From NCBI GenBank assembly GCA_025656375.1, contig JAHXHU010000120.1:1-44525 (forward strand): DNA of 44,525 bases, read 5' to 3'. This DNA comes from Candidatus Thiodiazotropha sp. (ex Ustalcina ferruginea). GTDB lineage: Bacteria; Pseudomonadota; Gammaproteobacteria; Chromatiales; Chromatiaceae. The position numbers and the translations under genes are program-made. Shown here one piece after another: positions 3,335-7,094 of this stretch. The notes beneath the pieces were generated by a model that saw only the letters and a list, made by a program, of their open reading frames with translations, was not told the origin of the DNA and ran no database searches. Each line of letters opens with the position of its first letter. Position 1 is the first letter of the stretch.

Positions 3335-4576
3335 CTATTGAATGCGTAGTGCTTGGCTGAGCGGTAGACGTGTCGCTTTCCATGCCGGATAAATACCGGC
3401 TAACAGTGCTGCTGCCAGCGTGGTGCCTAAAATCTTTATCGCTGAACTCTGTGTGAGTTGTGGGTGTATGACTGGATCCATGTAGAAAAACTCAAAGGCG
3501 TTCGCAAAGTGTGTCAGGTTGATTCCGTTATCAGCCACAGAATAGACTATTAAGCTTCCCGCCAGGTAACCCAGAATGGCGCCGATAAAAATAAGCATCA
3601 CCGCTTCCAGGAGAAGCATCAGAAAAATCTGGTACCGCTTGGTGCCAATTGCCACGATCACCCCCAACTCTTTTTGACGTTCATGTAAGGAGATGAGCAT
3701 GGTATTAAGAATTTCAATGAGTACCAGTATGATCACAACAAAAAGAATAACAAAACCATAAGCATCACTGAACTCGAGCCATTGCCTGACCATTGGGTCC
3801 AACTCCTGCCATGGCATTATTTCGTACTTTAAGTCGGATAATTGTTGTACAAAGAGTCGATAGAGCACATCTGTGTTGTCATGAACATCTGCCCGAATAA
3901 CAATATCAGTGACGGTCTGATCCATCTGTAGCCATTGTTGGGCGCTGTTGAGTGTAATGACAGCCAATGTGCGGTCTATCTGTGGTGCGCCGGTCTCGAG
4001 TACCCCCCGCAGAAAAAAGACTTCAGAGACCATTTCGCCGTTCAGGCGTTGTGCCATCAGGATTACCCTGTCACCCAGTTCTGCTCCCAGGTTCTGTGCA
4101 ACGGTACGGCCCAGTAGAAGGTCATGGCTCATACCGGGTCTTAGCCAGATACCCTCCTTGATACCCTGGTCCATAGAGGTAACCCAAGTCTCCTGTTCTG
4201 GATCGGTCGCCATAATCTGAATGCCGGCGCTATTGCCACTCACCGAAGCCAGGCCGGAAGTGCGTATACGTTGAGTCCAACCGATGATTTCAGGATAGCT
4301 TTGCATCAGCCTGGAGACCTCTTCCGGATCTTTAATCCGATCATTGAGATTTTGTGAAGTCTCGAAGCCTTTGGCATGGATCTGTAGATGACCGGTATAG
4401 CTGAGAATGAAATTTGTCTTCATCTGACTCAGCCAGCCATCGTTTAAGGCACTCAATAAAGTCAATGTAGCGATGCCGAATATCAGTGTGATCAGTGTGC
4501 GGCGTCGATTACGCAATAGATTGCGAGTAGCGAGTGAGAGGTAGGTGAACAGACCGAGACGATCAGATTCAGCCAT
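3335..4576 (-). CDS. ABC transporter permease (FtsX/LolC-E/MacB-type)
   Basis: N-terminal LATRNLLRNRRRTLITL, periplasmic MacB-PCD-like domain, C-terminal TM bundle with LISLHERQKELGVIVAIGTKRYQ. MAESDR start chosen; the ORF track start is 4591. Confidence 0.88.
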   Translation of the reverse strand: MAESDRLGLFTYLSLATRNLLRNRRRTLITLIFGIATLTLLSALNDGWLSQMKTNFILSYTGHLQIHAKGFETSQNLNDRIKDPEEVSRLMQSYPEIIGWTQRIRTSGLASVSGNSAGIQIMATDPEQETWVTSMDQGIKEGIWLRPGMSHDLLLGRTVAQNLGAELGDRVILMAQRLNGEMVSEVFFLRGVLETGAPQIDRTLAVITLNSAQQWLQMDQTVTDIVIRADVHDNTDVLYRLFVQQLSDLKYEIMPWQELDPMVRQWLEFSDAYGFVILFVVIILVLIEILNTMLISLHERQKELGVIVAIGTKRYQIFLMLLLEAVMLIFIGAILGYLAGSLIVYSVADNGINLTHFANAFEFFYMDPVIHPQLTQSSAIKILGTTLAAALLAGIYPAWKATRLPLSQALRIQ

Positions 4577-5811
4577 TTCGGATTGCCTCAACAGGCTGTA
4601 GCAGACTTGCTCTCCATGCGGGGTAGATGCCAGCGAAAACAGACGCTAGAAGAATCATCCCGACAGTGATACCCAGGTTGTCCAATTTTAGATGAGGATA
4701 AATCAGTGGATCGACATAAAATCGCGATGTAGAACCGAGTAGAATCGAGAGGTCGATACCTATGATGCTGGTTACCAGGATGATGCTATAACCAAGCATG
4801 ATGCCAGATGTAATACCAATGACACCAATGAGTACGGCCTCAACCAATAGCATACTAGCCACTTGGTAACGCGTTGTACCAATGGCCATTAATACCCCAA
4901 ACTCCCTGGTCCTCTCCAACATGGATAGCAGCATGGTATTCATTTCACCTGCAAGCACAATAAATAGCACGACACCAATGAACAGATAGAGAAAGCCATT
5001 GTGTAGTAATCCACTCCTTCATCACCGGAAACATGGTGTACCAAGGCATAATTTCCAATGACTCGCCTTGCAGCGATTGATTCAGTTCATCGATCAGGGT
5101 GGGAATCCGTTTTTCCTCAGCGCTGATAACGATAGTTGTGACTTGTTCAGGTAAATCCACCATCTCTTGGAGAGTGGATAGGCTGGTGATGGCCATACCA
5201 CTATCAAGCCCCATTTCGCCGCTGGTGATGATGCCAACCAGGGTAAATGACTCAGCCACCATAGCGCCATATCGGTCATAGCCGATAATGATGATCTCGT
5301 CGCCTAGCCTGACCTGAAGATTGCTGGCTGTTGTCGCGCCTACCACCAGACTGTAATCATCTTCTGGTTGTAAAAACCGACCTATGCCTATTCGTTTCTC
5401 GAGTTCTGTAACAAGGCCCTCCCGCTGTGGGTCCATACCGATCAACATGACCCCCTGGGTTGTGGTATCGGATGCAGCGAGGCCAAAGGTCTCAAGTCGA
5501 CGGCTATAGTTTGTAATGCCGGCTTGCTCCAGGTTGGTGATTATCCCGTCAGGATCAGCTATCACTCTGGAGAGTTCAGGACGCTGAAAAAATCCCTGAT
5601 GATGAATCTGAATAGAACCTATGATGGCTTTTTGGAAATTACCCAGCATGTTTCGATGCAGGCCTTCGTTGAAGCCCCAAAGAAATATCAGAGAAGCGAG
5701 CCCAACCGCGATCGCCCCGACGGTTAACAGGGTGCGACGGAGATGGCTAAGCAGGTTGCGTATCGCTGCAGCTAGGATGGTGGAGTTGACTACTGACTTC
5801 GACAGGGTCAT
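4569..5811 (-). pseudogene. Second ABC transporter permease (FtsX/LolC-E-type), split by a frameshift near 4998-5020
   Basis: ORF 4945..5811 (N-terminal TM and periplasmic domain) and ORF 4569..4970 (C-terminal TM domain, MLSMLERTREFGVLMAIGTTRYQ) together make one permease parallel to the neighbour. Confidence 0.75.
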
Positions 5812-5818
5812 CTGCTCC

Positions 5819-5984
5819 CTAGGCGTCTGTCGGACTTAGGATGAATCTACTGCGGAAAAGCCATTTTGGCCAGATTTCCCGATTAAATTCGTTAAATATA
5901 CTCATATACGCCTCATTTAATCGATAAATCTGACTCAAAATGGCTTTCCCTCGCTACGATCACCTAAGTCCGACAGACGCCTAG
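5819..5984. mobile_element. MITE-like palindromic element, 166 bp, with perfect 22-bp terminal inverted repeats
   Basis: CTAGGCGTCTGTCGGACTTAGG (5819-5840) is the exact reverse complement of CCTAAGTCCGACAGACGCCTAG (5963-5984). Inner arms also pair (AAAGCCATTTTG/CAAAATGGCTTT; CGATTAAAT/ATTTAATCG). No ORF. Confidence 0.75.
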
Positions 5985-6091
5985 TGTAGTGTAACGTATA
6001 AAATGTACCTATCAGTGAGACGCTGTGATCCGTATCTATAAAGAGCTTAGCGGTTGTTTATCATTTGCGCTTATCAGGTGCGAACAGGTTA

Positions 6092-6811
6092 TCAGTCAGT
6101 GGGACATTCATTGAACTCGATCGATTTTAATGTAATGACTGTGCGTTTGCCTTCATCGCCCAAGGGGGTCATTGTCCAGCGGGTTGGAATATGACGTCCT
6201 CCCATCTCCTGGATCAGGTCAAAAGTCATTCGTCTGTTCGCCCTTTTTTCACATTGGTATTCCATTTCCAGAGGTATTCCATCAGCGCGGATACGCTGTA
6301 TTAGCTGTTTCCAGGTTACCTTCGCGGTGGGAGATGGGGTGGATTCGATGGTTATGACAGCCTGGTTTCCGCTGCCATCACGCTGAATGATACGGTGGCT
6401 GTAGTCACTGATGAGTGAATCGGTCTCCAGTAGATCCTGGTTGTTGAAATCTGATCCCATCCAAGGATCCTGCATCATCGCCGGAGAGATTTTGATCTGT
6501 CGCCGCAGTTTGGGTAGGTACATGGAGAGTATATTGTCGACCTTGAGATAGACAGTACCCTTCGTTTTGCGCGGAGAGAGGATCTCCATACGAAACCGGT
6601 TTTTATCCACATCATCATGACTGCGGAAAGCCATACTACGTTGCCAATCCGGACGTATGATATCGACTTGATATTCTGCAATGGTGCCGGTTGAGCGCAT
6701 TAATGCCTCGGCTTTTTTAAGCAGGTCGATCGCTTCCAGTTCGCTTTCGCTGGCCATGGTCCCGGTAGCGTGGAAGATCAGAAGCCAGATTGCCTGAATA
6801 AACAGTTTCAT
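6092..6811 (-). CDS. Outer membrane lipoprotein-sorting protein (LolA-like, COG2834-type)
   Basis: Signal peptide MKLFIQAIWLLIFHATGTMA, then MEILSPRKTKGTVYLKVDNILSMYLPKLRRQIKISPAMMQDPWMGSDFNNQDLL, typical of this family. Start moved to the ATG at 6811, which has an upstream AGGAGTGA. Confidence 0.85.
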   Translation of the reverse strand: MKLFIQAIWLLIFHATGTMASESELEAIDLLKKAEALMRSTGTIAEYQVDIIRPDWQRSMAFRSHDDVDKNRFRMEILSPRKTKGTVYLKVDNILSMYLPKLRRQIKISPAMMQDPWMGSDFNNQDLLETDSLISDYSHRIIQRDGSGNQAVITIESTPSPTAKVTWKQLIQRIRADGIPLEMEYQCEKRANRRMTFDLIQEMGGRHIPTRWTMTPLGDEGKRTVITLKSIEFNECPTD

Positions 6812-6988: not shown

Positions 6989-7094
6989 CCTGATTACCCA
7001 CCATGCTCAGCAATTGTGTAGGCACCAAAGGAGATCTGAATCGTTAATACGAGGGCTTGTATGGACTTCCTGTGCGTTATGGTGGGTAATCAGG
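6989..7094. repeat. 106-bp element bounded by perfect 16-bp inverted repeats
   Basis: CCTGATTACCCACCAT (6989-7004) and ATGGTGGGTAATCAGG (7079-7094) are exact reverse complements in an intergenic region. Confidence 0.6.

Follow-up and report, generated by a model that had tools for sequence, protein, structure and literature searches.

A palindromic IS1182-type MITE with a conserved, strand-preferring core in a Lol-like operon of Candidatus Thiodiazotropha sp.

The IS1182 family has given rise to MITEs before: the ISMac2-related MITEs of Methanosarcina acetivorans are IS1182-derived, 160-169 bp long and bounded by 25-26-bp ends, as described in PMC3852290. Palindromic elements of other kinds include ERIC and Correia/NEMIS, which are mostly intergenic, fold when transcribed and reportedly change the way mRNA is processed (review PMC10969869), and the Coxiella elements QMITE1 and QMITE2, MITEs with very stable folds that are a source of small RNAs, QMITE1 being reported to lack orthologues elsewhere (PMC5896051). 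REP palindromes, finally, are given as 20-40 bp long (PMC3733652).

The window, i.e., the whole stretch of 44,525 nucleotides analysed here, harbours a palindromic element of 166 bp at 5819-5984 (exact coordinates, both CTAG copies counted). With the ISMac2-related MITEs it has in common an IS1182-type partner and a similar size and end length, and one of those two MITEs carries a 4-bp direct repeat; yet they belong to another host domain, are likened here by description rather than by sequence, and the passage that describes them mentions no conserved structured core. ISAzo2 of Aromatoleum aromaticum (IS1182) resembles the window element in its ends, CTAG-(G/C)AGCCTGTCGGRCT, and in its target, CTAG, whereas ISAzo2 and other IS1182 transposons encode a transposase of ~450 aa and lack the core.

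Nearest in behaviour are the ERIC, Correia and QMITE elements. ERIC and Correia/NEMIS are likewise palindromic, mostly intergenic and folding, but the CTAG target and the IS1182 ends belong to the window element; QMITE1 and QMITE2 are also MITEs with a very stable fold, but have other direct repeats, and the core of the window element is phylum-wide. Against identity with ERIC, a core-bearing element had no match among 20,395 records of E. coli, a species in which ERIC is found. The GTAG-tagged REP palindromes associated with RAYT are hairpin repeats too, and GTAG stands at both feet of the window core; REPs, however, are shorter and, as described, lack such terminal repeats or a CTAG duplication. 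Taken together, we regard the element as a MITE with a conserved fold (probability about 0.8 for both parts jointly, a function as RNA lying outside this figure).

The element and its site in the Lol-like operon

A sequence-only reading had proposed a 166-bp palindrome with perfect 22-bp termini, further imperfect inner arms and no ORF, and the element proved to be a near-complete palindrome of just this kind. Its outer arms are complementary at 22/22 positions, the inner arms (5854-5888 and 5915-5949) at 74%, and a search of the 166 bp for ORFs of at least 80 aa yielded none. The minus strand folds at -95 kcal/mol, compared with -38.0 +/- 3.7 kcal/mol for 200 shuffles of the element (z = -15.4), none of which folded as well as the real sequence; the folding energy is thus far beyond chance. 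The features of the locus are compiled in Table 1.

Table 1. Positions of the element, its parts and the adjoining genes in the window
Feature	Position	Strand	Evidence or remark
MITE copy	5819..5984	minus (sense of conserved core)	pairing, folding energy, ~11 near-full copies in own genome
CTAG, left target-site copy	5819..5822	none	single CTAG in G001 empty site; likewise most further occupied/empty comparisons
CTAG, right target-site copy	5981..5984	none	single CTAG in G001 empty site; likewise most further occupied/empty comparisons
Terminal inverted repeat, class A (CTAG + GMGYCTGTCGGACTTAGG type)	5819..5840	plus	common to IS1182-family transposons
Second terminal inverted repeat	5963..5984	minus	22/22 complementary to first
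Conserved structured core	5844..5958	minus	full-length match to covariance model R2
Near-invariant 5' box of core, CGTAGCGAG	5950..5958	minus	aligned copies
Near-invariant 3' box of core, CGCAGTAG	5847..5854	minus	aligned copies
Apical motif TGAGGCG(A/T)ATA-nnn-TATTTAACG, conserved internal loop and tip	5890..5915	minus	aligned copies
LolA-like lipoprotein-sorting gene, upstream of element in operon	6092..6811	minus	PF17131 (LolA_like), E 4e-35
First permease gene (MacB_PCD + FtsX), downstream of element	4569..5811	minus	domain matches; 2-nt deletion at about 5006/5007
Shine-Dalgarno AGGGAG	5815..5820	minus	kept intact; restored by CTAG target copy

As first read from the letters, the element lies between a LolA-like gene and a first permease, and its left edge overlaps the Shine-Dalgarno sequence before the ATG at 5811. 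The gene upstream matches PF17131; MacB_PCD/FtsX permeases follow downstream together with an ABC ATPase, and every one of these genes is encoded on the minus strand. The accompanying suggestion that it had replaced the 5' UTR of the permease did not hold. The orthologous operon of the nearest relative, G001, whose LolA is 97% identical to that of the window's genome (G000), has the empty site ...TTACAC-CTAG-GGAGCAG, while the occupied site reads CTAG-element-CTAGGGAGCAG. The leader is therefore lengthened, the gap between LolA and permease measuring 283 nt in G000 versus 112-117 nt in the two nearest relatives, and the Shine-Dalgarno sequence is unchanged because the duplicated target copy restores CTAG. 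When transcribed with the operon, the insertion would add a very stable hairpin to the leader, its foot touching the intact Shine-Dalgarno sequence, and it may well lower translation of the permease. The latter is frameshifted in any case: a 2-nt deletion within 5001-5012, relative to G001 and G003, splits the gene of G000 into two ORFs (4945-5811 and 4569-4970), either as a real pseudogene or as an assembly error. The permease starts with ATG at 5809-5811 in G000; the same position reads ATA in G001 and G003. A search of the element for an intrinsic terminator, a hairpin followed by a T-run, and for a promoter of an RNA gave neither; as the hairpin lacks a T-run, an intrinsic terminator or attenuator was discarded. 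Elsewhere in the operon region, a separate inverted repeat, CCTGATTACCCACCAT / ATGGTGGGTAATCAGG (6989-7004 and 7079-7094, ~106 bp overall), sits between the LolA-like and peptidyl-tRNA hydrolase-like genes.

The orthologous site is also empty in G003, and no copy was detected at the LolA-permease junction in the other genus members examined. The window insertion hence arose in its own lineage after the split from the nearest sampled relative. At least one other insertion is old, being common to G000, G001 and G003.

Searches for the element recovered ~11 near-full copies (89-93% identity) as well as shortened relics in the window's genome; two other members of the genus and several genomes of the family yielded further copies. 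Almost all copies have CTA at the left border and TAG at the right one. Queries made of joined flanks uncovered empty orthologues for eleven further occupied sites, a few of which hold copies with decayed edges; the empty site carries a single CTAG in eight of the eleven, and in the other three the relative differs there by about one base. Thus the multicopy nature of the element, the empty orthologous sites and ends common to a complete transposon bear out its reading as a MITE inside the operon, and the suspected duplication of CTAG is seen as one CTAG in empty and two in occupied sites, a pattern in which duplications of 2, 3 or 4 bp look alike because the target is CTAG.

Several observations were made along with these comparisons. 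Orthologous copies differ in length (L002 versus L079, L012 versus L028: full length versus ~80 bp), which means that the palindromes shrink in place via internal deletion. At L044, L065, L078 and other loci the copy begins exactly at the stop of the neighbouring ORF, whose stop codon is the TAG contained in the CTAG target. Another element, with the end TGTAGTGTCCTAAACATATTATCC, is very abundant: it occurs 50 times in G000, mostly near contig ends (e.g., C312:3974, C179:8196, C4:35896), adjoins CTAG in both loci examined and is absent from G001. The right flank of the window MITE, CTAG-TGTAGTGTAACG (5981-5996), shares its first 8 nt with this end, perhaps by chance or as a footprint.

IS1182-type ends and partner transposons

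The search for a transposase with matching terminal repeats was successful outside the window's genome. In G032 a pair of the same ends encloses a 449-aa transposase within CTAG (L051), and this protein scores 375 bits on the IS1182 model NF033551 (cut-off 270 bits). L051, L169 and other loci carry GAGYCTGTCGGACTTAG-type ends as in the MITE, and L169, L171, L172 and L173 are likewise complete transposons of the IS1182 family, sitting at CTAG and bounded by the same ends. Related transposases elsewhere in the class (55-62% identity) are bounded by the same kind of ends in CTAG, as are a copy on a Methylobacter plasmid and ISAzo2. In G000 itself, a draft of 444 contigs, no transposase with matching ends was found, and the window copy is therefore probably immobile in its own genome at present, subject to assembly gaps. 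MITEs usually have their partner in the same genome, although it may become lost.

The element is thus almost certainly a non-autonomous IS1182-type MITE, and there is equally little doubt that its insertion target is CTAG. To judge from the complete transposons in other genomes, an IS1182-family DDE transposase would have recognised the ends GAG(C/T)CTGTCGGACTTAGG in trans and inserted the element into CTAG. IS1272, a member of the IS1182 family, has been reported to choose stem-loop targets (PMC5678879), so that there is a precedent in the family for structure-sensitive behaviour. The inverted-repeat replacement mode of IS1272 is not seen here and was ruled out, since both sides retain CTAG and the flanks are not lost. 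The core was sought in 20 autonomous IS1182 loci and is absent from all of them, which weighs against the reading as a whole.

The conserved core and its fold

A covariance model built on the inner 116 nt of the element matches 83 of 369 genomes of the class, corresponding to 67 of 271 genera, and 45 of 399 genomes drawn from across the phylum, among them many genera of one family outside the class. Some relatives match the element only at positions 25-140. The same interior is enclosed by class-A ends and by a second type, class B (CTAGGAGCCTGTCCGAGAATAG), and in G026 the core between class-B ends shares 91% identity with that of the window, the class-A copies of the same genome only ~79%, a sign that core and ends may be exchangeable. 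As class-B ends also bound another IS1182 element (L244), both end types belong to the IS1182 family. A related fold (-122 kcal/mol in L237) lies between unrelated ends, GAGCCACAGACAAAACTC..., at L237:1501-1605 and L240:1501-1606, a possible third end type. As to carriage, core-type elements occur on one Pseudomonas plasmid only, the Methylobacter plasmid copy belonging to the IS1182 transposon set, and a search for phage carriage gave none. No Rfam family matches the element or core at the gathering cut-off, and a known structured RNA was thereby ruled out. Searching the literature for the sequences of core and ends brought up unrelated papers only, and searches for IS1182 MITEs of symbionts or Zetaproteobacteria, or for MITEs with compensatory structure, gave nothing relevant; most closed-access work falls outside this coverage, which limits any claim to novelty.

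Covariation was assessed in two sets, 38 copies from 35 genomes or records and 31 copies from other genomes, both aligned to the model and hence biased towards it. In the first set 95.5% of the cells pair and both sides have changed in 31 of 40 pairs; its covariation score amounts to 0.464, compared with 0.154 for shuffled and at most 0.129 for slid alignments; in the second, 33 of 40 pairs show double changes, with a score of 0.579 compared with 0.211 for shuffled alignments.

Because of this bias, the copies were realigned by sequence alone before G-U and A-C sites were counted on each strand. For pairs found on both strands, the first set yielded 17:3 G-U versus A-C sites (p = 0.003), and 18:5 (p = 0.011) with the structure derived from the opposite strand, while the shared pairs of the second set gave 12:4 (p = 0.08), which is suggestive only; as the copies share ancestry, the sites in these counts are not fully independent. 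The terminal repeats lean weakly in the same direction (15:9, not significant). The CGTAGCGAG strand is the more stable one in all 38 copies of the first set and all 31 of the second. The loops CGTAGCGAG / CGCAGTAG, GAG / GGCC and TGAGGCGAATAG-nnnn-CTATTTAACGA are near-invariant, and one pair is G-U in 35 of 38 copies.

These data make it quite probable that a single-strand fold of the core is under selection, and we infer that the selected molecule is the folded single strand CGUAGCGAG...CGCAGUAG. The choice posed by the sequence-only reading between a mobile element and a regulatory hairpin is too simple: the element is mobile, and compensatory changes have kept the fold of its core throughout the phylum. 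Its preference for one strand speaks for RNA, and less so for single-stranded DNA; we favour RNA, with some reserve, the failure to find a promoter counting against it. Over 54 copies, the orientation to flanking genes is random (crude ORF calls), and for this reason a role in the element's own spread appears preferable to one for a neighbouring gene, with the fold envisaged to bind a transposase or a host factor for the element's benefit.

Alternatively, the strand-specific fold might act as single-stranded DNA during replication, bringing the two ends into contact or being read by a structure-sensitive IS1182 transposase. This explanation, which we consider unlikely, is in line with the participation of the terminal repeats in the fold, the random orientation to genes and the stem-loop targets of IS1272; however, conserved G-U pairs such as that in 35 of 38 copies are found more typically in RNA, and for IS1182, a DDE family, no single-stranded DNA intermediate is known to us. 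More doubtful is an ordinary MITE devoid of a functional core, the arms of which stay complementary through quasipalindrome correction, a repair templated by the hairpin in which one arm is copied onto the other, and whose loops owe their conservation to common descent. Arm correction is a known property of palindromes, and joint changes in the two arms of a single copy do occur (for example GGCGTC/GACGCC, which is confined to the window copy), but neither the excess of G-U over A-C on one strand nor the near-invariant loops across the phylum beside largely replaced stems are accounted for in this way. It is very improbable that the hairpin serves the host by regulating the lol-like operon in cis, be it as an attenuator, as a terminator or as an RNase III site, even though the sense strand of the window copy is the operon strand, its foot touches the Shine-Dalgarno sequence and it folds so stably, since the site is empty in the two nearest relatives and carries no detected copy in the other genus members examined, terminator and promoter patterns are lacking, and the 54 copies are randomly oriented.

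Returning to the selected fold, one may tentatively envisage an as yet uncatalogued class of structured RNA, phylum-wide in occurrence, that travels inside MITEs and goes with two or more kinds of IS1182 ends, perhaps also with a further end type unrelated to these (L237, L240). As a joint reading, equally tentative, such an RNA would work for the element, e.g., by recruiting or regulating the transposase.

Implications for MITE interiors

The insertion itself is ordinary, and IS1182-derived MITEs are already known (PMC3852290). The interest of the element lies in a conserved, strand-preferring core, which is common to IS1182-type MITEs across the phylum and, as a candidate structured nucleic acid, has no counterpart in Rfam. 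MITEs are usually regarded as leftover transposon ends, and their interiors as disposable. Here, the interior recurs throughout the phylum, is kept by compensatory change, prefers one strand and is found between terminal repeats of at least two types. These properties open a function of a MITE interior to direct test, and the finding also supplies a concrete IS1182 partner system for experimental work.
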